From NCBI GenBank assembly GCA_030673955.1, contig DAOVBF010000003.1, positions 1-13,933 on the forward strand: a stretch of 13,933 nucleotides of DNA. Direction: 5' to 3'. The first letter of the stretch is position 1; every line of letters begins with the position of its first letter. Under the pieces are notes generated by a model. The model did not search any database. It saw only the letters and a program-made list of their open reading frames with translations, and had not been told where the DNA came from. The position numbers and the translations under genes were made by a program. Of this stretch, positions 1 to 13,933 are shown piece after piece. Origin of the DNA: Deltaproteobacteria bacterium. Lineage in GTDB: Bacteria > Myxococcota_A > UBA9160 > SZUA-336.

Positions 1-1
1 C

Positions 2-1255
2 TCGGCCCAGTCGCAGTACAACCTCACTCCCCTGGGCTCGTCGCTGTGGCTGGTGGCCGTCGGGCTGGAGCTCGTGGCGTTCCTGATCGGCGGCATCAAC
101 TTCATCACGACCGCCATCAACTTGCGCGCGCGGGGCATGCGACTTTTCGACCTGCCGCTCATGATCTGGATGCAGGTCGGGGCCAGCATCATCTTCCTGT
201 TCTCGGTGGGTCCGCTCATCGCCGGGGCCGTGTTACTGCTCCTCGACCGGGTGGCGGGAACCGGCTTCTACGACCCCGCAGCGGGCGGCGACCCCATCCT
301 GTTCCAACACCTGTTCTGGTTTTTCGGGCACCCCGAGGTCTACGTCATCTTGCTGCCCAGTCTGGGTGTCATCGCCGAGGTCGTGCCGGTCTTCTCGCGA
401 AAGCCCATCTTCGGCTACCGCATGATCGTCTACTCGACGATCATCACCGGCATCCTGAGCTTCATCGTCTGGGCACACCATCAGTTCGTCGCGGGCATCG
501 ACCCTCGCCTGGCCACGCCTTTCAGCATCACTACCATCCTCATCTCGGTGCCGATCGCGGTGATCATCTTCTCCTTCATCGCGACACTGTACCGTGGCTC
601 GATCGAGTTCAAGACGCCGATGCTTTTCGCCGTCGGCATGCTCGTCGTCTTCCTCCTGGGTGGGGTCACCGGGATTCACCTGGGCTCCGCCGCGGCCGAC
701 ATTTACCTGCACGACACGTACTTCGTCGTGGCCCATTTCCATTACACCCTCATCCCTCCAACATTTTTCACGTTTTTTGCAGCGGCCTACTACTGGTACC
801 CGAAGATGTTCGGTCGGATGATGAACGAAATCCTCGGCCACGTTCATTTCTGGCTCAGCCTGACATTCATGAACCTGACCTTCCTGCCGATGTTCCTGCT
901 CGGGCTGGCGGGACATCAGCGCCGGATCGCGAATCCCGCGTTCTTCGAGGCGCTGCAGACCCCCGAGGTGGCACGACTGCATACGCTCGCCACGATCGGG
1001 GCCATCGGCCTGCTCCTTTCCCAGCTGCCCTTCCTCGTGAACCTGGTGCTGAGCTTCTTCGTAGGCAAGGAGGCGGGGAGGAACCCCTGGCACGCGAACA
1101 CGCTGGAGTGGGCCGCGGCCTCCCCCCCCGGCCACGGGAACTTCGAGGAAGATCCCGTCGTCTACCGCGGGCCCTATGAGTACAGCCCACCGGGACACGC
1201 GCGGGACTGGCTGCCCCAGAATCTGGCGCCGGAGCAGATCGCCGACGAGTCGTAG
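2..1255 (+). CDS. ctaD: Cytochrome c oxidase subunit I (aa3-type heme-copper oxidase), 5' truncated
   Basis: This is the catalytic subunit of a proton-pumping terminal oxidase in the inner membrane. The frame is open from base 2, so the N-terminus (including the heme a ligand of helix II and the start of the D-channel) lies outside the window. Hallmarks: GHPEVY at 326-343, giving the CuB His, the helix VI Glu of A1-type enzymes and the Tyr that crosslinks to His; HH at 476-481 (the other CuB ligands); LHDTY followed by VAHFHY at 728-745 (Mg site, heme a3 and heme a ligands). The C-terminal NPW-ANTLEW and VVYRGPYEYS stretches are family-typical. Odd: the helix VIII stretch that normally reads VPTGIKVFS here reads VPIAVIIFS (548-574), so the K-channel Lys is Ile and the Thr three residues before it is Ile; in helix VI the usual Ser of G-I-I-S is Ala (374-376). 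It is followed after 50 bases by subunit III genes. Identification is secure; the subtype is uncertain. Confidence 0.96.
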   Translation, partial: SAQSQYNLTPLGSSLWLVAVGLELVAFLIGGINFITTAINLRARGMRLFDLPLMIWMQVGASIIFLFSVGPLIAGAVLLLLDRVAGTGFYDPAAGGDPILFQHLFWFFGHPEVYVILLPSLGVIAEVVPVFSRKPIFGYRMIVYSTIITGILSFIVWAHHQFVAGIDPRLATPFSITTILISVPIAVIIFSFIATLYRGSIEFKTPMLFAVGMLVVFLLGGVTGIHLGSAAADIYLHDTYFVVAHFHYTLIPPTFFTFFAAAYYWYPKMFGRMMNEILGHVHFWLSLTFMNLTFLPMFLLGLAGHQRRIANPAFFEALQTPEVARLHTLATIGAIGLLLSQLPFLVNLVLSFFVGKEAGRNPWHANTLEWAAASPPGHGNFEEDPVVYRGPYEYSPPGHARDWLPQNLAPEQIADES

Positions 1256-1305
1256 CCTAGGACGTGAATGAACGGGCACTGACCTGTCTAGATTGGGAGA
1301 TAAGA

Positions 1306-1881
1306 ATGACGAGAGCAGCCGAGCCGGGTTTCAAAGAGGCGACGGCGATCTCCACCGGCCGCCTCGGGATCTGGTGCTTCCTGGCTTCGGAGATCGTCAT
1401 CTTCGGCGGCCTGATCGCGATCTACCTGCTCTTCCGATGGCGTCACCCGGAGTGGAGCGCAGACGCGGCCCACATGCTGACCGCCGTGGGGGCCATCAAC
1501 ACCGTGGTCCTCCTGGCGAGCGGTCGGACGATGTTTCTCGCCCACGCTGCGGTCGAGAGACGCGACCTGCGGGCGGCCGTGCGGAACCTCGGATTCACGC
1601 TGCTGGGCGGATCCGTATTCCTCGGCATCAAGGGCTTTGAATACAGCCACGAGATCCGCCATGGCTTCACACCGGTCACGAATCTTTTCTGGTCCTTCTA
1701 TTACGTCATGACCGGTCTCCATGCCCTGCACATTCTGGGAGGTCTGGTCGCCCTTGCGATGATTCTGCTGGGCGTGCGCAGGGGACGCCATTCACAGCGG
1801 GTGGAGTACGTCGGGATGTACTGGTACTTCGTCGACGTCGTATGGATTTTTCTCTTTTCTCTCCTGTACCTGTTCTCATGA
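1306..1881 (+). CDS. ctaE: Cytochrome c oxidase subunit III, first copy
   Basis: A 191-residue, five-helix subunit III that packs on subunit I and supports stable proton pumping. It has the conserved membrane Glu (E29 in FLASEIVIFGG), the central G-L-H-A-L-H-I-L-G-G motif (H139 and H142) and the C-terminal YWYFVDVVWIFLFSLLYL helix typical of the family. The ATG at 1306 is chosen because GGGAGA lies about 7 bases upstream; an in-frame GTG at 1264 has no ribosome binding site and would add 14 residues that do not look like the family. It lacks the first two helices of the seven-helix mitochondrial type, which is normal for many bacteria. It sits 50 bases after subunit I and 16 bases before a second subunit III gene, so co-transcription is very likely. 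Confidence 0.94.
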   Translation: MTRAAEPGFKEATAISTGRLGIWCFLASEIVIFGGLIAIYLLFRWRHPEWSADAAHMLTAVGAINTVVLLASGRTMFLAHAAVERRDLRAAVRNLGFTLLGGSVFLGIKGFEYSHEIRHGFTPVTNLFWSFYYVMTGLHALHILGGLVALAMILLGVRRGRHSQRVEYVGMYWYFVDVVWIFLFSLLYLFS

Positions 1882-1897
1882 CGAGGAGTAGAGCGTG

Positions 1898-2482
1898 ATG
1901 GCGTCACAGGGATCCGCCGCCCTCGGCCGGCAGCCGATCGTCCCCAGCGGGGTGCTCGGGATGGTTCTGTTCCTGGCGACGGAAGCGATGTTCTTCGGGG
2001 GGCTGATCAGCGCCTTCGTCGTGCTTCGCGCGGCTACCCTGGATTGGCCGCCCCTCGGCCAGCCACGTCTTCCCATCGGCCTCACCGGTATCAACACGGC
2101 GATCCTCCTGCTGAGCGGATACGCGATGCATCGGGCGGTGGTCTGTGTACGGAAGGGCGAGGCTCACCTCGTTGCATGGCTCAGCGGGACCGCCCTGCTG
2201 GGTTGCGTCTTCCTCGGCATCCAGGGTTACGAGTGGCTCGAGCTCATCGGCTTCGGACTCACGACCCGCTCGAGCCTGTACGGAGCCACCTTCTACACGC
2301 TCGTGGGGGCTCACGGTCTGCACGTCCTCGCCGCGCTTGTCGTGCTGCTCGTGGTCCTGGCTCGGGGGATCCAGGGAAGATATACCGCGGCCGCGCATGG
2401 CGAGCTGGAGCTCTGCCGCATGTACTGGCTCTTCGTGGTTGCGGTCTGGCCCGTGCTCTACGTGCTGGTGTATTTGAGATGA
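1898..2482 (+). CDS. Cytochrome c oxidase subunit III paralogue, second tandem copy
   Basis: A 194-residue membrane protein of the heme-copper oxidase subunit III family. It shares the layout of the preceding gene: an N-terminal LFLATEAMFFGGL helix with the conserved Glu also at residue 29, the G-A-H-G-L-H-V-L motif, and a C-terminal YWLFVVAVWPVLYVLVYL helix. The usual F-V-D-V-V-W of the last helix is replaced by V-V-A-V-W, so the Asp seen in copy one is absent. The two copies are clearly diverged, so this is an old paralogue rather than a recent duplication. It may take the place that subunit IV or a seven-helix subunit III fills in other operons; that is inference. GAGGAGT at about 10 bases before the ATG at 1898 supports the start (a GTG lies one codon earlier). 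The stop overlaps the next start as ATGA. Confidence 0.9.
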   Translation: MASQGSAALGRQPIVPSGVLGMVLFLATEAMFFGGLISAFVVLRAATLDWPPLGQPRLPIGLTGINTAILLLSGYAMHRAVVCVRKGEAHLVAWLSGTALLGCVFLGIQGYEWLELIGFGLTTRSSLYGATFYTLVGAHGLHVLAALVVLLVVLARGIQGRYTAAAHGELELCRMYWLFVVAVWPVLYVLVYLR

Positions 2483-2715
2483 AAGAGCGGTTCGCAACGA
2501 ACGTGCGCATGCTTCTCGGATGGGGGGTCATCTGGAGCATCCTCACGGGAGCCCGCGTGGCGGCGGCCTGCTCGGTATGCTTCTCGGCCACGGACGCGGC
2601 CCGCGAGGCCTACTACTCCACAACCGCCTTCATGATCCTGCTGCCGATTGGGCTCGTTGCTTCGATCGGCGTTTGGCTGTATCGCGCCTCACGCAGGGCG
2701 GACGATACGCACTAG
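2479..2715 (+). CDS. Small CxxC membrane protein in the oxidase operon, function unknown
   Basis: A 78-residue protein whose ATG overlaps the stop of the preceding oxidase gene (ATGA), so it is translationally coupled to it. It has a basic N-terminus, a hydrophobic signal or anchor segment (about residues 9-29), a C-S-V-C-F motif at 31-35 just after it, a short polar stretch, and a second membrane helix (about 49-68) ending in arginines. I do not know a named function. Small proteins of this general shape, with two cysteines after a signal-like helix, occur beside terminal oxidases in other bacteria as far as I recall, but I cannot verify the family. The cysteine pair on the outer membrane face could bind metal or heme, or C31 could be a lipidation site (A-A-A-C). 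The TAG stop is the first three bases of the downstream dispersed repeat. Confidence 0.75.
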   Translation: MKERFATNVRMLLGWGVIWSILTGARVAAACSVCFSATDAAREAYYSTTAFMILLPIGLVASIGVWLYRASRRADDTH

Positions 2716-2717
2716 GA

Positions 2718-2737
2718 GGGCGACTCAAGGGTCGCCC
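2718..2737 (+). terminator. Hairpin at the 3' end of the oxidase operon (repeat copy 1, left arm)
   Basis: GGGCGAC and GTCGCCC form a perfect 7-bp stem around a 6-base loop, 2 bases after the stop of the last oxidase-operon gene. There is no T-run after it, so if it terminates it does so without a canonical U-tract, or it protects the 3' end. Confidence 0.45.
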
Positions 2738-2785
2738 GACGCGCGCGCAGGCGAACTCTGCTCGCCGATAACGCGCTAAGACGGC

Positions 2786-2825
2786 TAGGAGCGGACCCAA
2801 GACAGAGTCTTGGGTCAGGCTCCTA
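2786..2825 (-). terminator. Long hairpin at the 3' end of the sigma-factor operon (repeat copy 1, right arm)
   Basis: GACCCAAGAC (2794-2803) and GTCTTGGGTC (2807-2816) form a perfect 10-bp stem with a 3-base loop. Outside it TAGGAGC (2786-2792) pairs with GCTCCTA (2819-2825) across a small bulge. It starts one base after the stop codon of the minus-strand secreted-protein gene and can fold on either strand. A short T-rich half of the stem is present, but no separate U-tract. Confidence 0.5.
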
Positions 2826-2826
2826 G

Positions 2827-3363
2827 CTACTCGGCGGGCTTCCTCACCCGGTGCAGCGCGCCGCCCGGTATACGCGGGATGGATCGGGAAGCTCGCCTGG
2901 GCACACGGAAGTTCGGCACCATGTGAACGATCAGATAGCCGTCCCCGTGTTCCACGCCGCCCAGGATCACACCGCGACCGCTCGTCATGCGCATACGCGT
3001 ATTCACGGGGCCCGGCATCTCGACCTGCATGTGGAGCTGATGGCGCACGACGGAGATCGGCAGAAAGCGAACCTCCCGTCCCTCGGGCAGGGCCAGCCGT
3101 CCCGACTCCCCGAAGCGCAGCTTGAACTGACGCCGCTGTATGACGCGAAGCGTGCCGAAGTTCATGGGCTCCAGCTTCTTCCGCAGCTTCTCACAAATCC
3201 AATCCACCTGCCCCGGCTTCTTCTCGGCGTGCACGACCAGCGCGCGCACCAACACGGTCGGATCCGAGGCACGGTCCTTCGAATCCGCTCGGGCGATCTG
3301 GCTGCCCGGGATCCCCAGGGCCAGCACCGCCACCCCACAGAGCCACAGCCTCAGACTCGCCAT
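2827..3363 (-). CDS. Secreted protein of unknown function, third gene of the ECF sigma operon
   Basis: A 178-residue protein with a clear signal peptide (a short hydrophobic stretch after MASLRLW, likely cleaved after the A-R-A near residue 26), so it should act in the periplasm or outside the cell. The mature part has a helical stretch with many Lys and Arg residues (W-I-C-E-K-L-R-K-K-L), then a beta-rich pattern with alternating hydrophobic residues and Gly-containing turns. It has one cysteine beyond the signal peptide and no membrane anchor. I do not recognise a named family. The start lies 4 bases after the stop of the anti-sigma gene, so it is almost certainly co-transcribed and may be a target or sensor for the sigma system, by analogy with RseB-type periplasmic partners; that is inference. 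It ends in a basic tail, and the dispersed repeat begins one base past its TAG stop. Confidence 0.8.
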   Translation of the reverse strand: MASLRLWLCGVAVLALGIPGSQIARADSKDRASDPTVLVRALVVHAEKKPGQVDWICEKLRKKLEPMNFGTLRVIQRRQFKLRFGESGRLALPEGREVRFLPISVVRHQLHMQVEMPGPVNTRMRMTSGRGVILGGVEHGDGYLIVHMVPNFRVPRRASRSIPRIPGGALHRVRKPAE

Positions 3364-3367
3364 CGTG

Positions 3368-3925
3368 TCATGTCCACCGGCCCCCAGTGGGGAGCCGGCC
3401 GGAAATGTGGTCCTCGCCCTCGAGCAGCCAGATCACGGTAACGCCGTCCTCGAGCTCGTACACGAGCAGCGGATGCTCCGCCGAATCCAGGTCGTAGATG
3501 GCTGCGGGGGAGGCGAGGGTCGCGACCACGTCGGGCGGAGCGGGCTTACCGTCGTCAAGAGTGGGCAAACCAAGCCACACGAGGAGCAGCCCAGCCGCTA
3601 CGGTGCCCGCCAGCGCCGTCACGGGCACTGGACGGAGCACCTCGCTGACGTGTTGCACCAGGCGCTGCCAGGGCGACCGCGCCGCCAGCTCCGCATCCAC
3701 ACGACGCATCTCGGGACGCAGGGCGTTTACCAGGAACACGGCCGAGGGGGCCACAGGACCCTCGGTCCAGGCCTCCCGAACCGCAGCACCCAGCGACTCC
3801 ATCTGGCGCAAGCGGTCTACGCTCTCGGGATCGGAGCGGAGACAGCGCTCCAAGCGCTTGCGCGCGCGTGGGGACAGCTCGCCGTCGCGATAGGCTGCAA
3901 GCTGTCGCTCGAGACGCCACCTCAT
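3368..3925 (-). CDS. Anti-sigma factor, single-pass membrane protein
   Basis: A 185-residue protein encoded directly after an ECF sigma factor, with start and stop overlapping as ATGA (3922-3925). The N-terminal third is a short helical domain with the L-A-A-Y-R-D-G-E-L-S pattern of anti-sigma domains (about residues 8-50). It has no H-x3-C-x2-C zinc motif, so it would be a zinc-free type. One membrane helix spans about residues 99-120. The C-terminal 65 residues lie outside and end with a compact strand-rich block (Y-E-L-E-D-G-V-T-V-I-W-L-L). This topology, a cytoplasmic sigma-binding domain with a periplasmic sensor tail, fits RseA-like regulators: the sigma factor would be held inactive at the membrane until a signal triggers release or proteolysis. 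The start is set by the overlap; the longer open frame upstream runs antiparallel to sigma coding and is not used. Confidence 0.85.
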   Translation of the reverse strand: MRWRLERQLAAYRDGELSPRARKRLERCLRSDPESVDRLRQMESLGAAVREAWTEGPVAPSAVFLVNALRPEMRRVDAELAARSPWQRLVQHVSEVLRPVPVTALAGTVAAGLLLVWLGLPTLDDGKPAPPDVVATLASPAAIYDLDSAEHPLLVYELEDGVTVIWLLEGEDHISGRLPTGGRWT

Positions 3926-4554
3926 GTCACATCCTCCGGCTTCACGCCGTGCTGCTCCAGAAAAGCCACCATCTTCTTGCGGGCATAATGTAACCGGCTC
4001 ATCACCGTCCCCTTCGAGATGCCCATGGTGTCGGCGATCTCTTCGTAGGACAGGCCATCGACCTCTCGCAGCAGGAGAACCTCGCGCTGCCCATTCGGCA
4101 GCCCCTGGACGCCTCGCGCAACCAGCTCGCGAACCTGGCTGCGCCGGGCTGCGAGCTCGGGGTTGCGCGACGGCGGCTGGCTCGCACGGGGATCGACCCG
4201 TGCCGCCACGGAGTCTTCCCATTCCACGCTGGGGGCGCGCTGCTCGCTGCGGCGGCGGTCGAGCGCCAGGTTGACCACGATCCGGTAGAGCCAGGTGTAG
4301 AACGAAGAGCGAGACTCAAACTTGCGTAGCCCCTTGTATGCCTTGATAAAGGCCTCCTGCAGGATCTCTTCGGCTGAACTGGCATCACGCAGAACCCGGT
4401 AGGCGACCCGGAAGGCACGCTCGGAGTAACGCCGCACCAGAGCCTCGAAGGCCTGACGGTCCCCCTGACGCGCGTCCCGGACCAGCTCGCGGTCGGACCG
4501 CTCTGACTCGACCGCCACTCCCGGCACCGGCGCCAGCGCCACTACGGCTCGCAT
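3922..4554 (-). CDS. rpoE: ECF sigma factor, RpoE-like
   Basis: A 210-residue group IV sigma-70 factor that directs RNA polymerase to stress or envelope promoters. Region 2 covers about residues 33-101 (F-E-A-L-V-R-R-Y, then the D-A-S-S-A-E-E-I-L-Q-E-A-F core-binding stretch and the T-W-L-Y-R-I-V-V-N-L-A-L-D-R-R-R segment that contacts the -10). Region 4 covers about 145-198, ending in the helix-turn-helix L-S-Y-E-E-I-A-D-T-M-G-I-S-K-G-T-V-M-S-R. It lacks regions 1 and 3, as expected. The ATG at 4554 is chosen because GAGGAAG lies 9 bases upstream; an earlier in-frame start would overlap the end of polA. It overlaps its anti-sigma gene. I saw no obvious copy of its own promoter in the 88 bases after polA. 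The symbol is by class, not orthology. Confidence 0.92.
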   Translation of the reverse strand: MRAVVALAPVPGVAVESERSDRELVRDARQGDRQAFEALVRRYSERAFRVAYRVLRDASSAEEILQEAFIKAYKGLRKFESRSSFYTWLYRIVVNLALDRRRSEQRAPSVEWEDSVAARVDPRASQPPSRNPELAARRSQVRELVARGVQGLPNGQREVLLLREVDGLSYEEIADTMGISKGTVMSRLHYARKKMVAFLEQHGVKPEDVT

Positions 4555-4593
4555 GGGCCGCTGCTTCCTCGAAATACCATCCCTAGCCAGCTT

Positions 4594-4606
4594 CGACGGC
4601 CCTCTG
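4594..4606. other. Small palindrome between polA and the sigma factor gene
   Basis: In the 88-base gap (4555-4642), GGCCC-TCT-GGGCC can form a 5-bp hairpin with a 3-base loop. On the minus strand no T-run follows it, so termination of polA transcripts here would be weak at best. It could equally be a chance feature of GC-rich DNA. I see no clear sigma-70 or ECF promoter in this gap. Confidence 0.25.
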
Positions 4607-4642
4607 GGCCCGAAAATTCGCCCAGATTCGCTGCTGCGCTGC

Positions 4643-7303
4643 TCAATGTGCCTCCCGCCAGTTACGGCCCCAGCCCACACTAGCCTTCAGCACAACGGAC
4701 AGTTCCGCCACCCCCTGCATGCGATTGATCACGAGCGCACGGAGCGCCTCCACATCGGAGGGGGCCACCTCGAAGACCAGCTCATCGTGGACGGTCAGGA
4801 TCATGCGCGCCTCGGGGGCGCCGGCTGCCACCAGATCCCGGTCGATTCCGACCATGGCCCGCTTGATGAAGTCGGCGGCCGTGCCCTGGATCACCGAGTT
4901 GGTCGCCATACGCTCCGCAGCGGCGCGCTGGGCACGGTTCCTCGAGCGCAGATCGGGCAGGTAACGTCGCCTCCCATCAAGGGTTTCGGCATAGCCCTGC
5001 TCGCGCGCCCGCTGGATCGCCGTGTCCAGGAAAGCCCGCACCCCGGGATAGCGCGCGAAGTAGGCCCGAATGTGCTCCTGCGCCTGGCTCTGCGAGATCC
5101 CGAGCTGGCGAGCGATGCCGAACGCGGACGAACCGTAGATGATCCCGAAGTTGATGGCCTTCGTCTGGGTGCGCTGCTCCTCCGTGACCTCCTCCGGAGG
5201 GATGTCGAAGATCTGGGAAGCCGTCCGCACGTGGATGTCCTCGCCCTCCCGGAAGGCCGCCAGCAAGGGCGTGTCCTGAGAGAGATGCGCGAGGATGCGC
5301 AGCTCGATCTGGCTGTAGTCCGCTGAAAGCAGCACACGCCCCTCCGCCGGGATGAAGGCCTCGCGGATGCGCTGTCCCAGAGGCGTCCGGATGGGGATGT
5401 TCTGCAGGTTCGGGTTGGACGCGGAGAGACGGCCGGTGGCCGCCACGGTCTGGTTGAAGCTGCAGTGGATCCGGCCGCTCTCCGGATGGATCAGCTTGGG
5501 CAGGGCGTCGACGTACGTGCTCTTGAGCTTGGAGAGCTTGCGGTAGACCAGGATCTCGCGGGGTAGCTCGTAGTCGAGGGCGAGCTCCTCCAGCACCGAT
5601 TCATCGGTGGAGAAGCCCGTCTTGGTCCGCTTGGTCGGGGGCAGGGCCAGCTTCTCGAACAGGATGTGCTGCAGCTGCTTGGGGGAGTTGATCGTGAAAT
5701 CCTCCCCGGCCAGCTCGTAGACGCGCCGCTCTCGGTCGACCAGCTCTCGCTCCAGCTCCTTCGAGAGCGTAGCCAGCTTCCTCTCGTCGATGCGCACGCC
5801 GGCGAGCTCCATGCGCGCAAGCACCCGCACGAGCGGGACCTCGATCTCGCGGAAGAGGTCCAGCTGCCCCGTCGAGTCCAGTCGTCTCTCCAGCTCGGGC
5901 TCCAGGTCCAGGGCCGTGGCGACCTGCGTCCCGAAGAAATCCGCCAGCTCCTGGGCCGGGAGTGTGTCGGCGGAGCGTCGCTTCGCCCCCTTCCCGAACA
6001 GGTCCTCCCGAGCGGGGAGCTCCCTCGAGAGATAGGTTTGCGCCAGGGCCTCGGGGCGCTGAACCTGCCGGGAGGCGTCCACGACATAGGCACCGACGGC
6101 CGCGTCTCGCAGCTCTCCCCCGAGCGCGATGCCTCTTCGGGCAAACGCGACGCAATCTCGCTTGAGGTCGTGACCAACCCAGCTGCGCTGGCTCCGCTCG
6201 AGGACGGGGCGTAGGGCCTCGAGCACCTTCTCCTCCCCGAGCGCCTCGACGAGCAGGAAGTCGGCCGCGTCAGAGCTCCGCGCGAAGGCCATCCCCACGA
6301 GCTCCCCGCGCATCGGGTCCTCCGGCTCCAGGACCGTGGCCAGCGCCGCGCGGGGCCCGGCTTCGAGACGCGCGACCAGGGCTGCGAGGCCGTCCGCATC
6401 CCGCACCAGCTGGGTCCTCACGGCGGTCGGCCGGGGAGCCCTCCCCGCCGCGGCCTCTCCCAAGGCCTCGAGCAGCCGCTTGAACTCGAACTTCCGGAAG
6501 AGCTCGGCAAGCGCCTGCCGGTCGGGCTCGGGGATTGCAAAACGCTGGAGGTCGAGCTCGAGGGGCAGGTCCTCGCGCAGGCGCGAGAGTTCGTGCGAGA
6601 GCCGCGCCGCATCGGTCCCCGCGGCCAGCGCCTCCCGCACGCGCTTCGAGCCGATCGCCGTGGCGTGCTCGAGCAGGTTCTCGAGCGTGCCGTACTCCGC
6701 GATCAGCTTGGCCGCGGTCTTCTCGCCGATACCCCGGACCCCCGGGATGTTGTCGGAGCTGTCACCGGTCAGGGCCCGCAGCTCGAGCATGCGCGCCGGC
6801 GGCACACCGAAGCGCTCCTCGACCTCCTTCGGTCCGTAAGTGCGATCGCGCATGGTGTCGAGCAGCGTGACGTGCTGACTCACGAGCTGCATCAGGTCAC
6901 GATCCGTGGAAACGATCGAGACCTCGAGATTCTCGGGCTCGGCCTTGCGCGTGAGCGTCGCGATCACATCGTCGGCCTCCTCCCCCTCGTACTCGACCGA
7001 AGCCAGACCGTACGCCTCCACCACGCTGCGGATATGCGGGAGCTGCGCGACCAGGGCCTCGGGCATCGCGTCCCGTGTTGCTTTGTACTCGGGGTAGAGC
7101 TCCTTACGGCGCTTCGCGATCCGGCTGTCCCACACGACGACCACGTAGTCGGGCCGTTGTTCGCGCAGAACTTTTTGCAGCATGTTCACGAAGCCCAGCG
7201 TGGCGTTCGTCGGAACCCCACTTGCGGTCATCAACGGGGGCAGCGCGTAGAACGCCCGATAGATGCTCGAGCTCGCGTCGATCAGGAAGAGTTTCTTCGC
7301 CAT
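4643..7303 (-). CDS. polA: DNA polymerase I
   Basis: An 886-residue, full-length enzyme for Okazaki fragment maturation and repair synthesis. Residues 1 to about 290 form the 5'-3' flap nuclease (F-L-I-D-A at the start, E-G-E-E-A-D-D near 106-112, T-G-D-S-S-D-N-I-P-G-V near 179-189). About 300-480 is the 3'-5' exonuclease-like domain. About 490-886 is the polymerase: motif A L-L-S-A-D-Y-S-Q-I-E-L-R (D662), the O-helix R711, K715, F719 and Y723, and motif C T-V-H-D-E-L (D840, E841). Odd: the proofreading motif I, F-D-T-E in E. coli, aligns to L-A-T-V (residues 321-324), so both metal-binding carboxylates are missing. The motif II Asp (D383 in G-H-D-L-K-R-D) is kept. Phe at 719 is the usual residue that disfavours dideoxynucleotides. 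The ribosome binding site is weak. It follows a sugar-nucleotide gene by 51 bases. Confidence 0.97.
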   Translation of the reverse strand: MAKKLFLIDASSSIYRAFYALPPLMTASGVPTNATLGFVNMLQKVLREQRPDYVVVVWDSRIAKRRKELYPEYKATRDAMPEALVAQLPHIRSVVEAYGLASVEYEGEEADDVIATLTRKAEPENLEVSIVSTDRDLMQLVSQHVTLLDTMRDRTYGPKEVEERFGVPPARMLELRALTGDSSDNIPGVRGIGEKTAAKLIAEYGTLENLLEHATAIGSKRVREALAAGTDAARLSHELSRLREDLPLELDLQRFAIPEPDRQALAELFRKFEFKRLLEALGEAAAGRAPRPTAVRTQLVRDADGLAALVARLEAGPRAALATVLEPEDPMRGELVGMAFARSSDAADFLLVEALGEEKVLEALRPVLERSQRSWVGHDLKRDCVAFARRGIALGGELRDAAVGAYVVDASRQVQRPEALAQTYLSRELPAREDLFGKGAKRRSADTLPAQELADFFGTQVATALDLEPELERRLDSTGQLDLFREIEVPLVRVLARMELAGVRIDERKLATLSKELERELVDRERRVYELAGEDFTINSPKQLQHILFEKLALPPTKRTKTGFSTDESVLEELALDYELPREILVYRKLSKLKSTYVDALPKLIHPESGRIHCSFNQTVAATGRLSASNPNLQNIPIRTPLGQRIREAFIPAEGRVLLSADYSQIELRILAHLSQDTPLLAAFREGEDIHVRTASQIFDIPPEEVTEEQRTQTKAINFGIIYGSSAFGIARQLGISQSQAQEHIRAYFARYPGVRAFLDTAIQRAREQGYAETLDGRRRYLPDLRSRNRAQRAAAERMATNSVIQGTAADFIKRAMVGIDRDLVAAGAPEARMILTVHDELVFEVAPSDVEALRALVINRMQGVAELSVVLKASVGWGRNWREAH

Positions 7304-7354
7304 CGGATCGGATGTATCACGCCTTCCCGCCGCACGACAAGCGAGGCTGCGGCG

Positions 7355-8467
7355 TCAGGCACCGGAGAAACGCTTTCGCAGCTCGGCGTCTCGGCGCAGC
7401 GCCTCGAGGTCAGCGGGGGTCTTCACCGGAAAGAAGCGGCCTCGGGGCCCGCTGCGCGGTATGGCCAGATACGCCGTTTCGACAAAGGCCGAGAGCTCGC
7501 CAATCAGGCGTTCCATCTGGACGACTTTCCGCCCGTCGAGCTTCTTCTCGACGTAGAACCAGGAGAGTGGATAGTCCTTCTCCCATGCGGAGAGCGAGAT
7601 CATGAATGTATTTGTATTGATGAACCGGATCCGATCGAAGTCGAAGTCCCGCGGAAAGCGGAATCCCTCCACGATCTGAATCCGTCCCCCCACGCGGGCC
7701 GGGGCTCCGCCCACGTCGCCGCCCATCGTCTCCGCCACCTCGACCGTGAGCGCCCGCCCGTGCTTCAGGTGATAACCCACGATCACGGGATCCAGTTCCG
7801 CGCCGAGGTTGTCGACGTTAGACAGCGCGATGGCACGAACGCCGCGTTCAGCGAGCTCCGCCAAGCGCCCCGAATCGCGCAGCGCCGTGAGGAAGTCCCC
7901 GTGGCCCGGCGCGTAAAGCGAGAGCGCGCCCGAGGCGTCCCGAAAGAGCTCTCCCTCGGGCGTGAGGCGCAGGGAGGCCGATTGCAGGAACGGGAGCACA
8001 TCGTCCTCGAGCCCGTGCTCTGCGAGGAAACGAAGCGTGCGTTGGTGAGTGGCGAAGCTGTTCATGACGAGGAAAGGCACCGGCCCGTGCCGGAGCGCCT
8101 GCTCGCGCTTGAGCTCGAGGAAGCTTCGGCCGCCGACCGCTTCGACGACGCCTTTGACAGCTCCGCCGAAGCGCGTGGCCATCCCCCCGTTCAAGACCGC
8201 AACCGCCACCTCCCCCCGCGCCAGCAGCTCGCGTCCGATTTCGGTGTAATCAGCGCGCTCGATCTCCGGAAACGCTTCCAGCCGGTCGACCAGCTCGTCC
8301 GGCGCGGGCTCGGGGGGAGCGGGGAGTCGGTTCGACTCGGAGTCGAGTCGGCCTGCGCGAATCTCCTCGGCAAAGTACTCGACTCGCTCTCGGTCCACGG
8401 CAAGGCCGTCCAGGCCTTCCAGCAGGCCCGCCAGCTCCCTTTCGATTGCCCTCCAGTCGAAGCGCAT
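7355..8467 (-). CDS. UTP-sugar-1-phosphate uridylyltransferase, UDPGP family
   Basis: A 370-residue protein of the eukaryote-like UDPGP family, which makes UDP-glucose or UDP-N-acetylglucosamine from UTP and the sugar 1-phosphate for envelope polysaccharides. It has the nucleotide-binding loop V-L-N-G-G-M-A-T-R-F-G (residues 91-101) with the conserved Lys after it (K105 in V-K-G-V), the S-N-V-D-N-L-G motif in the middle and the F-I-N-T-N-T-F stretch that contacts the sugar. It belongs to a different family from the common bacterial GalU and GlmU. It is shorter than eukaryotic members (about 500 residues). The ATG at 8467 has a strong GGGAGGGGGGA just upstream; longer in-frame starts run into the divergent gene. 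The exact sugar cannot be read from the sequence. It is transcribed toward polA and divergent from the small membrane protein gene. Confidence 0.85.
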   Translation of the reverse strand: MRFDWRAIERELAGLLEGLDGLAVDRERVEYFAEEIRAGRLDSESNRLPAPPEPAPDELVDRLEAFPEIERADYTEIGRELLARGEVAVAVLNGGMATRFGGAVKGVVEAVGGRSFLELKREQALRHGPVPFLVMNSFATHQRTLRFLAEHGLEDDVLPFLQSASLRLTPEGELFRDASGALSLYAPGHGDFLTALRDSGRLAELAERGVRAIALSNVDNLGAELDPVIVGYHLKHGRALTVEVAETMGGDVGGAPARVGGRIQIVEGFRFPRDFDFDRIRFINTNTFMISLSAWEKDYPLSWFYVEKKLDGRKVVQMERLIGELSAFVETAYLAIPRSGPRGRFFPVKTPADLEALRRDAELRKRFSGA

Positions 8468-8535
8468 TCCCCCCTCCCAGGGTAAACCATCCTGTCCCCT
8501 TGCGCGGCCGGCAGAGCCCACGCCATGATGACCCC

Positions 8536-8814
8536 ATGCGGAGAGGCCAGCCGGACGATCGCGACCTCGCGAGATTCTTCCCACGCGTCACTCTGGCGAT
8601 CGCCGCGAGTCTTCTGCTGTTTCTGGTCTCGGCCGGGCTCTACGCCCTGCCGGTCCTCCTCGAGCCTCCGCCTCCGGGCGCGATCGCCGATTACCACAAG
8701 GAAAAAGTCAGGGCACGCCTACAGGGCAAGGTGATCTGGTTCCTGGCGGGCTCGCTCCTGACCGTCACCCTGGTCGTTGCGCTACCCCGCGGCGGGGGTC
8801 CCCGGAAGTCATGA
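8536..8814 (+). CDS. Small membrane protein, two helices, function unknown
   Basis: A 92-residue protein with a charged N-terminus, a hydrophobic helix (about 18-42), a proline-rich turn and charged linker (E-P-P-P-P-G, then H-K-E-K-V-R-A-R), and a second helix (about 66-83) with a basic tail. It probably forms an inner-membrane hairpin. I do not recognise a family. Its stop overlaps the start of the next gene as ATGA, so the two are coupled. The ATG at 8536 is the first that gives a sensible membrane protein; no clear ribosome binding site precedes it. It is divergent from the UDPGP gene with 68 bases between the two starts. Confidence 0.6.
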   Translation: MRRGQPDDRDLARFFPRVTLAIAASLLLFLVSAGLYALPVLLEPPPPGAIADYHKEKVRARLQGKVIWFLAGSLLTVTLVVALPRGGGPRKS

Positions 8815-9263
8815 GCGGCATTCGCTATTTCGCCTATGGCTCCAACCTCGACGCCGAGCAGATGGCGCTTCGCTGCCCCTCCGCGCGTGGGCTTTTCCGC
8901 GCGTGCCTGCGGGATCACCGGCTCGACTTCACCTACTTCTCCAGGCGCTGGTCGGGTGGGTCCGCCGATGTGGTGCCCCACTTCGGGGCGAACGTCTGGG
9001 GGATCGTCTACGAGCTGAACCCCGCGGAGGTGCCGGATCTGGATCGCTTCGAGGGCGGCTACCAGCGGATTTTTCTCGCGGTTAACGACGACCAGGAACG
9101 CACGCACCCCGTGATCAGCTACGAGGTGCCGCTGAAGCGCAGCTTCCGTCCGACGGCAAGCTATCTCGGGAAGATCATCCTCTGGGGCGAGCGCTGGAGC
9201 CTGCCCCCTGAGTATCTGGAGGGGCTCCGGCGCATCCCCATCATCCCCGAGCCCGGAACTTAG
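8811..9263 (+). CDS. Gamma-glutamylcyclotransferase-like protein
   Basis: A 150-residue protein of the gamma-glutamylcyclotransferase-like fold, enzymes that cyclise and release gamma-glutamyl groups as 5-oxoproline. The family signature Y-F-A-Y-G-S-N-L is at residues 6-13 (substrate-binding loop), followed by the R-C-P-S-A segment, the V-W-G-I-V-Y-E-L strand, and L-D-R-F-E-G with E81 as the likely catalytic acid. The C-terminus ends with a short L-P-P-E-Y-L-E-G-L-R helix seen in several relatives. The true substrate is unknown: relatives act on glutathione fragments, gamma-glutamylamines or butirosin-type intermediates. The start overlaps the upstream membrane protein. Its TAG stop is the first three bases of the second copy of the dispersed repeat. 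Confidence 0.85.
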   Translation: MSGIRYFAYGSNLDAEQMALRCPSARGLFRACLRDHRLDFTYFSRRWSGGSADVVPHFGANVWGIVYELNPAEVPDLDRFEGGYQRIFLAVNDDQERTHPVISYEVPLKRSFRPTASYLGKIILWGERWSLPPEYLEGLRRIPIIPEPGT

Positions 9264-9300
9264 GAGCCTGACCCAAGACTGTGTCTTGGGTCCGCTCCTA
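9261..9300 (+). terminator. Long hairpin ending the plus-strand pair (repeat copy 2)
   Basis: A 10-bp perfect stem (9270-9279 with 9283-9292, loop TGT) is enclosed by TAGGAGC/GCTCCTA. The hairpin includes the stop codon of the upstream gene, so it starts inside the translated region. It is the same structure that ends the sigma operon on the other strand at 2786-2825. Confidence 0.5.
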
Positions 9301-9409
9301 CCCCCGCTTAGCGCGCAAGGCGGTGCGAAGCGCTGCCGTCGCGGCAGGCCGGCTTCGCCGGCCGATAACCGGGTAGTCGGGGCGAGCAGAGCTCGCCTGC
9401 GCGCGCGTC

Positions 9410-9429
9410 GGGCGACTCTTGAGTCGCCC
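9410..9429 (-). terminator. Hairpin at the 3' end of fabH (repeat copy 2)
   Basis: GGGCGACT and AGTCGCCC form an 8-bp stem with a 4-base loop. On the minus strand it begins 2 bases past the TAG stop of the fabH-like gene. It is equivalent to the 2718-2737 hairpin after the oxidase operon. Confidence 0.45.
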
Positions 9430-9431
9430 TC

Positions 9432-10436
9432 CTAGGCGAAAGGCGGCACGTCCAGGCTCCAGCGCAGGGCACAGCCGGCCCAGGTCAGCCCCGACCCGAA
9501 AGCAACGGCGATAATCCGGTCGCCGGGGCGAAAACGCGCCGCGCGCTGACACTCGTCCAGCAAGACCGGAATGGAAGCCGCCGAAATATTCCCGGTGCGG
9601 GCCAGGTTCGTGGGCACCTTTTCGCTGGGAACCCCGAGCCGGTCGGCAACCGCATTCAGGATCCGACGGTTTGCCTGGTGCACGATCAAGTGGTCGACGT
9701 CTTCGATCCGCCAGCCAACCTTATCTAGTGTATCCTGCGCCACCTGCTCCAGAGCCTGTACCGCCAGCTTGAAGAGCTGGCGCTCCTCCATGCGCAGGAA
9801 TTGCTCGCGCTGGGTGAGCGTGTACGGCGAGGCCGGGCGCGCCGCGGCACCGCCGGGAATCCGGATCAGATCCGAGGACCCGGGGTCAGCCTTGAGCGTC
9901 GTGGCCAGAACATCGCCCTCCCCCTCCTCCACCTCCAGCAAGACGGCCCCCGCTCCGTCCCCGAACAGAACACAGACCTGCCGGTCCTGGTAGTCGACGA
10001 AGCGCGTCAGCGTCTCGGCCCCGATCAGCAGCGCCCGGCGGTAGCTCCCGGAAGCCAGGAGAGTATTGACCACCTCGAGGCCGTAGATGAAGCCGGAGAA
10101 GGCAGCATTCAAGTCGAAGCTCGGGATCGGGCGTCCGATGCGGAGATTCCGCTGCACGAGGTTCGCGGTCGACGGCGTGAGCATGTCGGGCGAGATCGTG
10201 GCGACGACGATCAGGTCCACGTCGTCGGGGGTGGCACCTGCCATATCGAGCGCCTGCTGCGCCGCGCGGGTGGCCATGTCGCTGGTGGCCTGGTCGGCCT
10301 CGAGCACACAGCGCTCCCGGATCCCCGTGCGCACAACGATCCACTCGTCGCTTGTGTCGAGCATGCGCTCGAGATCGGCGTTGGTGAGCTTAGACTCGGG
10401 GAGGCTCGAGCCCGTTCCCCGGATCACCGCGCTCAT
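9432..10436 (-). CDS. fabH: Beta-ketoacyl-ACP synthase III-like protein with catalytic Cys replaced by Phe
   Basis: A 334-residue KAS III family protein. Normal FabH joins acetyl-CoA (or another starter) to malonyl-ACP to start fatty acid synthesis. It has the N-terminal S-D-E-W-I...R-T-G-I-R-E-R signature, the F-G-D-G-A-G-A-V-L-L block, H253 in H-Q-A-N-R-R-I and N283 in T-G-N-I-S-A-A-S-I-P. The active-site stretch that normally reads N-A-A-C-S-G-F reads N-A-A-F-S-G-F: residue 113 is Phe (codon TTC at 10100-10098). One base change from TGC would explain it. Without the Cys the protein cannot form the acyl-enzyme; it could be a malonyl decarboxylase, a non-catalytic partner, or inactive, unless this is a sequencing error. 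It overlaps acpP as ATGA, so the two are coupled. The C-terminus runs about 6 residues past the usual end. Confidence 0.9.
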   Translation of the reverse strand: MSAVIRGTGSSLPESKLTNADLERMLDTSDEWIVVRTGIRERCVLEADQATSDMATRAAQQALDMAGATPDDVDLIVVATISPDMLTPSTANLVQRNLRIGRPIPSFDLNAAFSGFIYGLEVVNTLLASGSYRRALLIGAETLTRFVDYQDRQVCVLFGDGAGAVLLEVEEGEGDVLATTLKADPGSSDLIRIPGGAAARPASPYTLTQREQFLRMEERQLFKLAVQALEQVAQDTLDKVGWRIEDVDHLIVHQANRRILNAVADRLGVPSEKVPTNLARTGNISAASIPVLLDECQRAARFRPGDRIIAVAFGSGLTWAGCALRWSLDVPPFA

Positions 10437-10678
10437 TGGGCGGATTCGACGCGGCTACCCAGGTACTGGACGATGTCGTTGATCGTACGCATCGTTTCGA
10501 CGTCCTCATCCGGGACCTCGACCCCGAATTCCTCCTCCAGGGCCATGACGAGCTCCACGACGTCGAGGGAGTCGGCTCCCAGGTCATCCAGAAGATTCGC
10601 CTCTGGGACGAGGTTCGCCTGCTCCACTCCGAGCTGATCGCCGATGATGGCGTTCACACGCTGCGCGAGCGCTTCCAT
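10433..10678 (-). CDS. acpP: Acyl carrier protein
   Basis: An 81-residue acidic carrier protein that holds growing acyl chains as a thioester on a phosphopantetheine arm. The attachment Ser is S37 in D-D-L-G-A-D-S-L-D, followed by the V-V-E-L-V-M-A-L-E-E-E-F-G helix II typical of fatty-acid ACPs. Length and sequence are standard. The ATG at 10678 is preceded by GGGAGGAG at a good distance; a longer in-frame start upstream is not supported. It is followed with a 4-base overlap by the fabH-like gene. Other fatty acid genes (fabD, fabG, fabF) are not in the window, so this is a split or specialised acyl-ACP pair. A promoter region with a palindrome lies about 110-170 bases upstream. Confidence 0.96.
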   Translation of the reverse strand: MEALAQRVNAIIGDQLGVEQANLVPEANLLDDLGADSLDVVELVMALEEEFGVEVPDEDVETMRTINDIVQYLGSRVESAQ

Positions 10679-10787
10679 GCTCTCCTCCCGTAAACACGAC
10701 CGCCCACGCTGGGCAGCCGCCCATCGGGTCACCCCCCAACGGGCCCCCGTCCGAGCTCAGCCAGCCGCCCCGGTCGAGCCTCCGAAG

Positions 10788-10845
10788 TGACTAGGAGTCA
10801 TCTTATAAGCAAGGGAATGTAGGGATCTCCTCAGAGCCCTGTCAA
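10788..10845 (-). promoter_or_regulatory. Candidate promoter and operator upstream of acpP
   Basis: The 214-base gap 10679-10892 is the longest without a gene outside the repeats. On the minus strand it has a perfect TTGACA (10845-10840) with TACATT 18 bases later, and further down TATAAG (10807-10802) followed after one base by the palindrome TGACTCCTAGTCA (10800-10788). The palindrome would cover the transcription start of a TATAAG promoter, a good place for a repressor such as the neighbouring TetR protein or a lipid regulator. The implied leader is over 100 bases and includes a small TGGGC/GCCCA hairpin. All of this is by eye. Confidence 0.35.
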
Positions 10846-10892
10846 GCAGTCCGGGCCAGGCGGGCTGGCCGAGCTGGACCCGGGTTCCGAGG

Positions 10893-11519
10893 CTAAGCCG
10901 AAGCCTCGGGGCCAAGCCCCCGGATGAGCACCTCCATCGCGCTCTCGAAGACCCCCTCCAGCTCGCGGGCCCGCAGCCCGGATCTCTCGGGCTGCTCCTC
11001 CGTCTGGATCAGGCCGTTCGCCACGATCCAGAAGATGTTCGCCATCTCCCAGGGGTCGCAGGGCCGGAAGCACCCCTCGCGGACGCCCCGGGTGATCTGA
11101 TCGGCCAGGATCTGCAGGCAGCGCGACCACAAATCGGTGACAGCCCGTACCACGGCGTCGGGCAGCCCTCCGATCATGCGTTGGTTCTCGATGGCCCAAA
11201 AGATCCGAAAGTACTCGCGGTTCTCGCAGTAGTGCTTGAAGTAGAAGAGCCCGATCCGCTTAATCTGCTTGTCGGGCGAGAGCGAGGGATCGATCTTGTT
11301 CCGCATGCGCGAGACGAAGGCATCCGCGTTGTGGACCAGGACCGCGACATAGAGCTCGGCCTTGCTCTCGAAGTAGCGGTAGATGGTTCCCTTGGCGACG
11401 CCGGCCAGGCTCGCCACCTCGTCGAGGTTGGCCGCCTCGAAACCCTCCCGGAAGAATACCGTGCGCGCTGAATCAAGGATGCGGCGTCGGCTGGCTTCGC
11501 GTTTCCCCAACTGCTCCAT
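10893..11519 (-). CDS. TetR-family transcriptional regulator
   Basis: A 208-residue one-component repressor. The N-terminal DNA-binding domain (residues about 10-60) has the canonical pattern I-L-D-S-A-R-T-V-F-F-R-E-G-F, then A-N-L-D-E-V-A-S-L-A-G-V-A-K-G-T-I-Y-R-Y-F-E-S-K-A-E-L. The remaining helical domain would bind a small ligand and make the dimer; it holds many aromatic residues (I-G-L-F-Y-F-K-H-Y-C, F-R-I-F-W), fitting a hydrophobic or acyl ligand, which is inference. It lies between cysK and acpP-fabH on the same strand, so it may control either, or itself. A TATAAT box ends 9 bases before its ATG, so the transcript may have almost no leader. The TAG stop sits in a hairpin (CCGAGGC/GCCTCGG, 10887-10909). 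Confidence 0.9.
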   Translation of the reverse strand: MEQLGKREASRRRILDSARTVFFREGFEAANLDEVASLAGVAKGTIYRYFESKAELYVAVLVHNADAFVSRMRNKIDPSLSPDKQIKRIGLFYFKHYCENREYFRIFWAIENQRMIGGLPDAVVRAVTDLWSRCLQILADQITRGVREGCFRPCDPWEMANIFWIVANGLIQTEEQPERSGLRARELEGVFESAMEVLIRGLGPEASA

Positions 11520-11528
11520 AGCAGCGAG

Positions 11529-11534
11529 ATTATA
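11529..11534 (-). promoter_or_regulatory. Candidate -10 box of the TetR gene, possible leaderless start
   Basis: TATAAT on the minus strand, a perfect consensus in GC-rich DNA, ends 9 bases before the ATG at 11519. No good TTGACA is at the right distance (around 11552-11557 reads ACTGGA), and there is no Shine-Dalgarno before the ATG. A start about 7 bases past the box would give a leader of only about 3 bases. Confidence 0.35.
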
Positions 11535-11603
11535 ACGCGACTCGAGCCCGCTCCAGTGTCTTTTGGGCGGATCGCGGATGCGGACCTGCCCAGGGGCCCC
11601 GAG

Positions 11604-11617
11604 CGGGCCGAAGCCCG
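11604..11617 (-). terminator. Hairpin with a UUCG loop just after cysK
   Basis: On the minus strand CGGGC-TTCG-GCCCG directly follows the TAA of cysK. C(UUCG)G is an extra-stable tetraloop. The stem is short and no T-run follows, so it could be a weak terminator or a 3'-end stabiliser that separates cysK from the TetR gene. Confidence 0.4.
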
Positions 11618-12571
11618 TTAGACGTCGTCACTTCCCTCGAAGCGCAGGTCTTCGAAGAGAGCCGTCGAGAGATAGCGCTCCCCGTAGCTCGGCAGGACGA
11701 TGACGATGAGCTTGCCCTCGGCCTCCGCTCGCTTGCCCACCTCCACGCCAGCACAGACCGCCGCACCGGAGGAGATTCCCGACAGTAGGCCTTCTTCCAC
11801 ACCCAGCCGGCGCGCCATCTGGATCGCCTCCTGGCTCGAGACCTGGATCACCTCATCGATCAAGGCCGTGTCGCAGACATCGGGGATAAAGCCCGCGCCG
11901 ATCCCCTGGATCATATGCTTGCCGGGCTTGCCTCCGGAAAGGACCGGGCTCTCCCTGGGCTCCACGGCGATGGACTTGAAGCTCGGCTTGCGCGACTTGA
12001 TGACCTGCGCCACGCCCGTGATGGTGCCTCCGGTCCCCACGCCGGAAACCACGTAATCCACCTGACCATCGGTATCGTTCCAGATCTCTTCGGCTGTGGT
12101 GTTGCGGTGGATCTCCGGGTTGGAGGGATTCTTGAACTGCTGGGGAACAAAGGAGTTTGGAATCCGCGCCGCCAGCTCCTCGGCAGCCTTCAGCGCGCCC
12201 GGCATGCCCTCGGCCGCCGGTGTGAGAACGAGCTTGGCGCCGTAGGCGCGCAGCATGGTGCGGCGCTCCACCGACATGGATTCCGGCATGGTGAGGACGA
12301 GGTCGTACCCCTTCACCGCCGCCACAAGCGCGAGTGCGATCCCGGTGTTCCCGGAAGTGGGCTCGACAAGCACGGTCTTGCCCGGCTGGATGAGACCGTC
12401 GCGCTCGGCGGCGGCAATCATGGAGGCGCCGATCCGGTCCTTGACGCTCGACGCGGGGTTCGAGCCCTCCAGCTTGCACACCAGCTGCGCCCTCACACCA
12501 GTGCTGACGCGGTTCAGCCGCACGAGCGGGGTGTTTCCAATCAGCTGCGTGACATCGTCCCAGATTCTCAT
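11618..12571 (-). CDS. cysK: Cysteine synthase (O-acetylserine sulfhydrylase)
   Basis: A 317-residue PLP enzyme of the cytosol that makes cysteine from O-acetylserine and sulfide. K44 in S-S-V-K-D-R is the PLP Schiff-base lysine. T-S-G-N-T-G (72-77) is the substrate-binding loop, G-T-G-G-T (179-183) grips the PLP phosphate, and S268 in G-I-S-S-G-A contacts the pyridine nitrogen. The length is normal for CysK, and there is no regulatory CBS domain, which argues against cystathionine beta-synthase. GGAGGGAAGG upstream of the ATG at 12571 supports the start. It lies 26 bases after a small unknown gene and is likely part of the lpxD-rnhB transcript. CysM-type enzymes with other sulfur donors cannot be wholly excluded. 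Confidence 0.94.
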
Positions 12572-12597
12572 GCCTGCCTTCCCTCCTGGCTGTGGCC

Positions 12598-12951
12598 TTA
12601 CGATGGTAACACGAGGTTGGTAACGCCTAGGCGCGCTCCGGGAGTGCGGCGCAGCAGATCCGCCCCCAGCTCCGCAACGAGATCCCGGACCGCCTGACTC
12701 CGCTCTGGGTGAGTCATCGGATCGATCCTCACGGTCGCGCCGCCGCGATCATGGGTCGAAACCTTCACGTAAAAGGGCTGCTTTCGGCCTGCCTCCACCA
12801 CGAGCGCCTCGATCAGCAGCGAACGCCTTTCTCGCTCCAGGAAGACGCGGTCTGCCCGCAGCACGTCTTTCCCGCGCCGGAGCAGAATGGGCTCGAAGTC
12901 GCGCGCATAGGCGTGCAGATCCACGGGGCCCTCGAGCACGACGTGGGGCAC
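12598..12951 (-). CDS. Small conserved-looking protein of unknown function, GTG start
   Basis: A 117-residue soluble protein directly after rnhB: the TAG stop of rnhB and the GTG start are one base apart, and GGGAGGT sits 5 bases before the GTG, so the start is well supported. The sequence has mixed strands and helices, many charged residues ([22 protein letters not shown]), no cysteine, no signal peptide and no membrane segment. I do not recognise the family. In many bacteria the gene after rnhB is yraN, a predicted endonuclease-like protein, but I do not see its usual G-E-I-D-L motif, so I do not assign it. A longer open frame in front of the GTG overlaps rnhB and is not used. Followed by cysK after 26 bases. 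Confidence 0.7.
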
Positions 12952-12952
12952 G

Positions 12953-13750: not shown

Positions 13751-13758
13751 GTGCGCCC

Positions 13759-13933
13759 TCACTCCTCGGGTCGCATGCCGAGCCGCTCTTCGATGCGTCG
13801 CACCCGTCGCAGCAGGTCGGGTAAACGCTTCCAGGCCGCGCTGACCCGCGCGAAGAGACGCCGATCCATATGGGGTACGCCCACCACCTGCGATCCCGGC
13901 GCCAGGTCTCCGGCGACCGCGGAGGAGCCACCG
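13759..13933 (-). CDS. lpxD: LpxD (UDP-3-O-acylglucosamine N-acyltransferase), C-terminal fragment
   Basis: Only the last 57 codons are in the window; the gene continues beyond base 13933. The fragment begins with the end of a left-handed beta-helix (A-V-A-G-D-L-A-P-G-S-Q-V-V-G-V-P) and then a C-terminal helix (R-L-F-A-R-V-S-A-A-W-K-R-L-P-D-L-L-R-R-V-R-R-I) ending M-R-P-E-E. This join of hexapeptide repeat and helix, with H-M-D-R-R after the V-P, matches the end of LpxD, which adds the second hydroxyacyl chain in lipid A synthesis using acyl-ACP. LpxA has a different C-terminus. It is followed after 8 bases by rnhB; in E. coli fabZ, lpxA and lpxB lie between them. The call rests on a short stretch. 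Confidence 0.7.
   Translation of the reverse strand, partial: GGSSAVAGDLAPGSQVVGVPHMDRRLFARVSAAWKRLPDLLRRVRRIEERLGMRPEE

Follow-up and report, generated by a model that had tools for sequence, protein, structure and literature searches.

The closest described relatives of the repeats analysed here are insertion sequences (IS) of the IS1182 family. In the parts of the published accounts available to us, ISPse1 of Paracoccus has 16-bp ends and a 4-bp direct repeat (PMC3281130), ISPsy36 has the target GGCC (PMC8027508), and IS1272 replaces a target stem-loop without duplication (PMC5678879). Our window, a 13,933-nt stretch of a Deltaproteobacteria bacterium genome (assembly GCA_030673955.1, contig DAOVBF010000003.1, positions 1 to 13,933), carries two copies of a dispersed hairpin repeat. 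Very likely, these repeats are non-autonomous miniature inverted-repeat transposable elements (MITEs) of the IS1182 type that sit at CTAG and whose rebuilt TAG ends spare the stop codons of adjoining genes. The two copies are in opposite orientation, start with TAGGAG and end with CTCCTA, and their coordinates and ends, as reported in an earlier note on this DNA, were verified:

2713..2825, + strand: copy A of the MITE, 113 nt, in the context CTAGGAG...CTCCTAG
9261..9434, - strand: copy B of the MITE, 174 nt long and containing an extra REP-like hairpin

The complete elements described below encode transposases of the same family as IS1272, ISPse1 and ISPsy36, and the 4-bp repeat of ISPse1, as far as its available description goes, would fit a duplication of CTAG here. 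A second group of comparable elements comprises RUP and the Correia/NEMIS repeats, which the consulted portions of the literature describe as small, non-coding and mostly intergenic units with terminal inverted repeats (TIRs), TA ends and stem-loop transcripts (PMC2229807, PMC5896051), RUP being linked to IS630-Spn1 (PMC2229807). Our elements share these traits but differ from RUP and Correia in their IS1182-type ends, GC-richness and CTAG target, and in an outward TAG that coincides with stops, whereas the stop codons described in the accessible text on RUP and the 155-bp Correia form lie inside and not at the edges. MITEPsy1 of Pseudomonas syringae has different TIRs and is thought to derive from ISPsy2; its insertions are described, in the portion of the source available, within genes and not at stops. 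REP/BIME repeats resemble our elements as palindromic intergenic units; they are spread by REP-associated tyrosine transposases (RAYT) and are not known to have IS-type TIRs or target duplication. No stop-preserving IS1182 element is reported among the listed search results and accessible portions of the open-access literature searched. The repeats are best described as a variant on known elements, an IS1182-type group of MITEs whose CTAG target preserves stops.

The ends of the repeats carry this assignment. A 19-mer scan of a genome collection located the end TAGGAGCCTGACCCAAGAC in 86 stretches, all of which were analysed and 80 of which are listed by name; these 80 come from assemblies titled Deltaproteobacteria, Myxococcales, Myxococcota or Proteobacteria, plus one Thermoanaerobaculia. 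Such ends border elements of 39-209 nt (one longer row is a nested pair) as well as complete IS of about 1.4 kb. Among the fetched loci, complete elements of 1386-1443 nt that contain an IS1182-type gene and are bounded on both sides by these TIRs occur in four genomes (L184 in G005, of the window's family; L185 in G066; L186 in G064; L187 in G014; L and G numbers denote loci and genomes). The product of the G066 element (L075/L185), 416 aa long and with DUF772 and DDE domains, reaches 327 bits with the NCBIfam IS1182 model NF033551, for which the cut-off is 270; a search of 94 genomes with the IS1182 model gave matches at E <= 1e-20 in 19 genomes and above the cut-off in 9. The right end of the window repeat matches the TIR of the IS exactly over TAGGAGCCTGACCCAAGA, and its left end, in the copy B version, agrees by eye at 19/21 bases with the right TIR of the L186 IS, which is of the GACTCAAGA type. 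The window ends thus share their TIRs with complete IS that bear an IS1182 transposase, as derivatives of that family do, and the repeats have the attributes of MITEs: they are 113-174 nt long, contain no transposase open reading frame and are present in four copies in their own assembly.

The mode of insertion can be read at the nucleotide level in locus L055, where a 166-nt element is nested in an element of the 141-nt type, which L067 and L129 have without interruption. The empty site CCGCAGCTAGCTGG (core GCAGCTAGCTGG; CCGCAGC-TA-GCTGG) has become CCGCAGC[TAGGAG...CTCCTA]GCTGG with no bases lost. The inserted element is a relative with the same TIR, not a window copy, and its insertion duplicated TA or, equally, CTAG; from the letters the 2-bp and 4-bp readings are inseparable, because the target itself is CTAG. 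The earlier note had guessed that TAG on both sides of a copy might be a short target duplication, and in the one empty site found this was right, as TA within CTAG. Stem-loop replacement of the IS1272 type is not what happened in this one case, in which both sides of the target are kept. The preference for CTAG extends beyond L055: on the left side 48/50 elements have C as the outer base, on the right side 48/50 have G, and exact cores GAGCCTGACCCAAGA in 14 chosen genomes are preceded by CTAG in 71/86. CTAG is itself scarce: base composition predicts 1907 occurrences in the 86 named loci, which contain 411 when element ends are counted. The elements also suggest a CTAG-duplicating branch of the IS1182 family.

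A palindromic target was considered as a general rule and rejected, the flank complementarity at positions 2-12 amounting to 172 matches against 163.7 +/- 10.5 in shuffled pairings (50 elements). In contrast to the IS1272 model, the flanks beyond the outer base are no more palindromic than shuffled ones, except in a few cases such as L053 and L179, which lie in long palindromes. The latter contains, at 1384-3161, another IS1182-type element with ends TAGAAGCCCGGCCGAAAAG, centred in a long, nearly perfect palindrome, at CTAG.

Based on the above data, we propose that an IS1182-family transposase would move the MITEs in trans, recognizing ends of the TAGGAGCCTGACCCAAGA or TAGGAGGGCGACTCAAGR type and inserting them at CTAG, or rarely at a one-base variant of it, with duplication of TA or, indistinguishably, of CTAG. 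Each inserted edge would read ...C-TAG-GAG outward, and a pre-existing C-TAG stop would therefore be preserved and the proteins left unchanged; where convergent genes have stops that overlap in CTAG (or TTAG), both stops would be kept. In these GC-rich genomes, CTAG sites are few and often lie at gene ends. Insertions are under-represented in genes and at divergent junctions, which would be expected if such insertions are lost, so that selection may act as a filter and the surviving repeats would often be flush with stops and cluster at convergent junctions. The stop codon would be preserved jointly by the choice of target and the sequence of the ends, which would give a transposon a simple route into dense GC-rich genomes at gene ends with the coding sequence unchanged.

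This scheme was compared with the positions of the elements relative to genes called with a home-made codon model, the same for elements and controls. Among the 103 exact TIR ends, which are all those in the 86 loci (two lie within 150 bases of a locus end), 44 have their TAG as a called gene's stop, 2 have a gene ending at the TGA eleven bases in, and 1 lies inside a called gene. A flush stop is found for 118/3852 readings of ordinary TAG trinucleotides and for 69/398 of ordinary CTAG. Of the 45 two-ended elements, 35 lie in the named loci L044-L129 and the remaining 10 in further loci that were fetched; they were set against 261 control CTAG sites, taken only from L044-L129. At least one flush stop adjoins 27/45 elements, five of which have two, versus 76/261 control sites, six of which touch two. 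Copies from one genome are non-independent in these counts. The 19-mer scan and the two-ended search (<=2 substitutions) select for TAG edges, for which the core-only search serves as a check. The codon model missed the end of a sulfatase-like gene beside the IS in L075/L185, which was counted as tandem with one flush edge; this IS is likely to have two.

By junction, the two-ended elements comprise 23 convergent, 18 tandem, 1 divergent and 3 unassigned cases, one of the last in a called gene. Relative to the controls, elements are rarer inside called genes (1/45 versus 62/261) and between divergent genes (1/42 versus 28/185), and commoner between convergent genes (23/42 versus 48/185). At tandem junctions flush edges show no excess (7/18 elements versus 48/109 controls). 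The view of the earlier note that the repeat is mobile and often sits exactly at gene ends is supported, and the mostly divergent or intragenic placement that it named as refuting is not what the junctions show. Because ordinary CTAG already touches stops in 76/261 cases, CTAG targeting combined with loss of harmful insertions accounts for most, perhaps not all, of the pattern.

The same note had seen the repeat as the supplier of the stop codons, and in this form the claim is unsupported. On the right of the L121 element, a gene with the ending ...SLFESAN uses the element's TAG as its stop, and its relatives without the insertion have a stop codon at the same position in 6/7 cases (three TAG, two TGA, one TAA), the seventh, L167, stopping three codons later. 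For the sulfatase-like gene of L185, one of the two readable relatives (L213) has the same stop codon and the other (L212) stops one codon later. The repeat need not bring the stop, because CTAG is present in the empty site and related genes without an insertion mostly end there. Genus and family searches for empty sites at stop codons yielded flanks mostly 67-86% identical, enough for stop positions and not for duplications.

At the window junctions, three of the four repeat edges are the exact TAG stop of a neighbouring gene and the fourth stop is one base off, an observation of the earlier note that the open reading frame coordinates bear out. The gene names below are that note's labels, given without comparison with a family library:

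2479..2715, + strand: small CxxC-type protein gene, TAG stop 2713-2715 at the left edge of copy A
2827..3333, - strand: secreted-protein gene, stop 2827-2829, one base past the end of copy A (2825)
8811..9263, + strand: gamma-glutamylcyclotransferase-like gene, TAG stop 9261-9263 flush with copy B
9432..10436, - strand: fabH, stop CTA 9432-9434 flush with copy B

Copy B most likely entered a conserved, tight convergent junction, because the protein of 8811-9263 is matched in 8 family relatives and all 8 keep the adjoining 9432-10436 homologue with no element between them. The two genes are spaced by -38 to +50 bp in the 7 relatives in which both are called. Excision of copy B in silico would give ACTTAGGCG, with the stop TAG and the opposite stop TAA overlapping in TTAG, and excision of copy A would give CACTAGCTACTC, with two stops back to back.

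The window's own assembly (1.58 Mb, 59% complete) contains two more full copies besides A and B, on contigs C89 and C125. A search for the end-sequence pattern found 8 exact ends, belonging to these 4 elements, and 3 hits with two mismatches; since the reversed control gave 8 hits at <=2 mismatches, only exact ends were counted. All four copies have TAGGAG/CTCCTA ends and convergent called genes on either side, with flush stops at 6/8 edges. In the conserved wider context CTAG...CTAG, the base outside the left TAG is C in 3/4 copies and T in copy B, and the base outside the right end is G in 4/4. The outer arms of copies A and B are 96% identical over 55 nt and 95% over 43 nt, and in folding both copies beat all 200 dinucleotide shuffles (z = -5.63 for copy A and -5.37 for copy B). 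Their parts are arranged as follows:

2713..2733, + strand: left TIR of copy A, GACTCAAGR type
2718..2737, + strand: left terminal hairpin of copy A, from folding
2741..2776, + strand: central REP-like hairpin of copy A, from folding, with pairs kept despite two-sided changes
2786..2825, + strand: right terminal near-palindrome of copy A, 40 nt, composed of TIR and inverted TIR spaced by 3 nt
9261..9300, - strand: right terminal near-palindrome of copy B, with the exact TIR TAGGAGCCTGACCCAAGA at 9261-9278
9347..9368, - strand: additional REP-like hairpin TTATCGGCCGGCGAAGCCGGCC of copy B
9410..9429, - strand: left terminal hairpin of copy B, from folding

Similar repeats occur at E <= 0.001 in 21/97 genomes searched, the own genome included. 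G001 and G004, from two further genera of the window's family, carry related elements (112-123 nt) that keep the order of terminal hairpin, REP-like hairpin and 40-nt end palindrome. Across seven aligned copies from three genera (the counted alignment is without copy B and a third G004 hit), 96.8% of the counted pair cells pair, versus 30-43% in slid versions, and two-sided changes occupy 10 cells, a number reached by 0/500 shuffles. The bases of the left terminal hairpin (2718-2737) differ in the G001 and G004 relatives with pairing still possible, as judged by eye and outside the counted structure. With its three lineages only, the alignment indicates that the hairpins are kept and not what role they have; they may terminate transcription, protect 3' ends or do nothing.

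Several points weigh against an IS1182-type MITE origin with stop-sparing CTAG insertion, or limit its reach. In the own assembly, which is 59% complete, a search with the IS1182 model gave 0 matches at E <= 1e-20, and because of this we infer the enzyme that would mobilize the window copies from relatives. The left TIR of the window repeat agrees with the canonical TIR at only 16/21 bases (by eye), and the IS1272 model, in the accessible part of its account, is stem-loop replacement without duplication, whereas the L055 insertion kept its target and duplicated TA or CTAG. The nucleotide-level empty site is a single one, nested in another repeat and away from a stop codon. Furthermore, 15/86 TIR cores are not preceded by CTAG; 14 of these were read (5 CCAG, 3 CTAA, 2 GTAG and 1 each of TTAG, CGAG, CTCG and AGCC), and 13/14 are one base from CTAG; the exceptions can be mutations or relaxed targets. 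In the hairpin alignment, the pairs with two-sided changes number 4, which was reached by 26/500 shuffles. Finally, at convergent junctions flush edges are found for 20/23 elements versus 27/48 controls (p = 0.015), and the availability of CTAG is not the whole account.

This last excess, with the enrichment at convergent junctions and the strong hairpins conserved in three genera, favors the strongest rival, in which selection retains the repeat because it acts at once as stop codon and as two-way transcription terminator or insulator, in a position that is selected for and more than tolerated. We consider this unlikely. A simple consensus scan for intrinsic terminators in the window returned 3 sites versus 6.6 in shuffles, with no U-tract terminator at 2713-2825 or 9261-9434; CTAG is already in the target, and relatives without the element stop at or near the same codon. 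Flush edges are not in excess at tandem junctions, and the hairpins may in part simply result from inverted TIRs lying close together. A selected terminator role is possible, yet would be unneeded to explain the data. A combined scenario, in which a lineage of IS1182-type transposons in Myxococcota-related bacteria would use CTAG sites as a safe harbour and the leftover hairpins would be kept by selection as two-way terminators or protectors of mRNA 3' ends, is a tentative idea that we regard as doubtful. Stop-sparing insertion at CTAG makes testable how far convergent-junction hairpins, often read as terminators, are transposon remains.

It is considerably less probable that the repeats are REP/BIME-type palindromes spread by a RAYT enzyme. 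Small palindromic multi-copy units at convergent junctions would suit this origin, and the REP-like hairpin family TTATCGGC-(GGGC/GAGC/CGGC)...GCC, to which the hairpin at 9347-9368 belongs, has 15 exact matches in the own assembly (L239-L253), against 0 in the reversed control. However, the repeats end in IS1182-type TIRs and show a CTAG target and a duplication, and 12/15 of the REP-like hairpins lie outside these elements, 3/15 being in MITE copies. As a family of its own, the REP-like hairpin is found inside a called gene in 0/15 cases and at a convergent junction in 8/10 of those with both neighbours called. IS630 elements prefer CTAG. An IS630/mariner-type element that duplicates TA at CTAG, in the manner of RUP or Correia repeats, would agree with the TA ends, the small size and a duplication inseparable from 2-bp TA, but this already disfavoured reading is hardly tenable as the complete elements with these TIRs encode IS1182-type transposases. 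Least credible of all is random truncation, in which an element landing anywhere near a gene end provides the next in-frame stop: the TIR has stops in two frames (TAG at 1-3, TGA at 9-11) that could lend a tidy look, but similar numbers of TAG and TGA ends would be expected where 44 and 2 are found, C precedes TAG in 100/103 exact ends, and related genes stop at or near the same codon, so that the frame bias largely refutes it.

The same TIR is present in L089, in a contig from the assembly titled Thermoanaerobaculia, and this points to a binning error or to transfer between phyla. Solo units of 24 nt, TAGGAGCCTGACCCAAGACTCCTA, made up of a single end closed by CTCCTA and preceded by C, are present in L072, L093, L094, L100, L101 and L119, and 3/6 are flush with a called stop. 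A second repeat, ending TTCATGAA(C/T)A.TCCGGGC, or its end, adjoins three elements of one assembly (L072, L119 and L120). In a family relative, G006, contigs (L024, L255, L267 and L278) break off some 155 nt inside an element that has this TIR and the start of a transposase-like frame, as expected if a multi-copy IS breaks the assembly.

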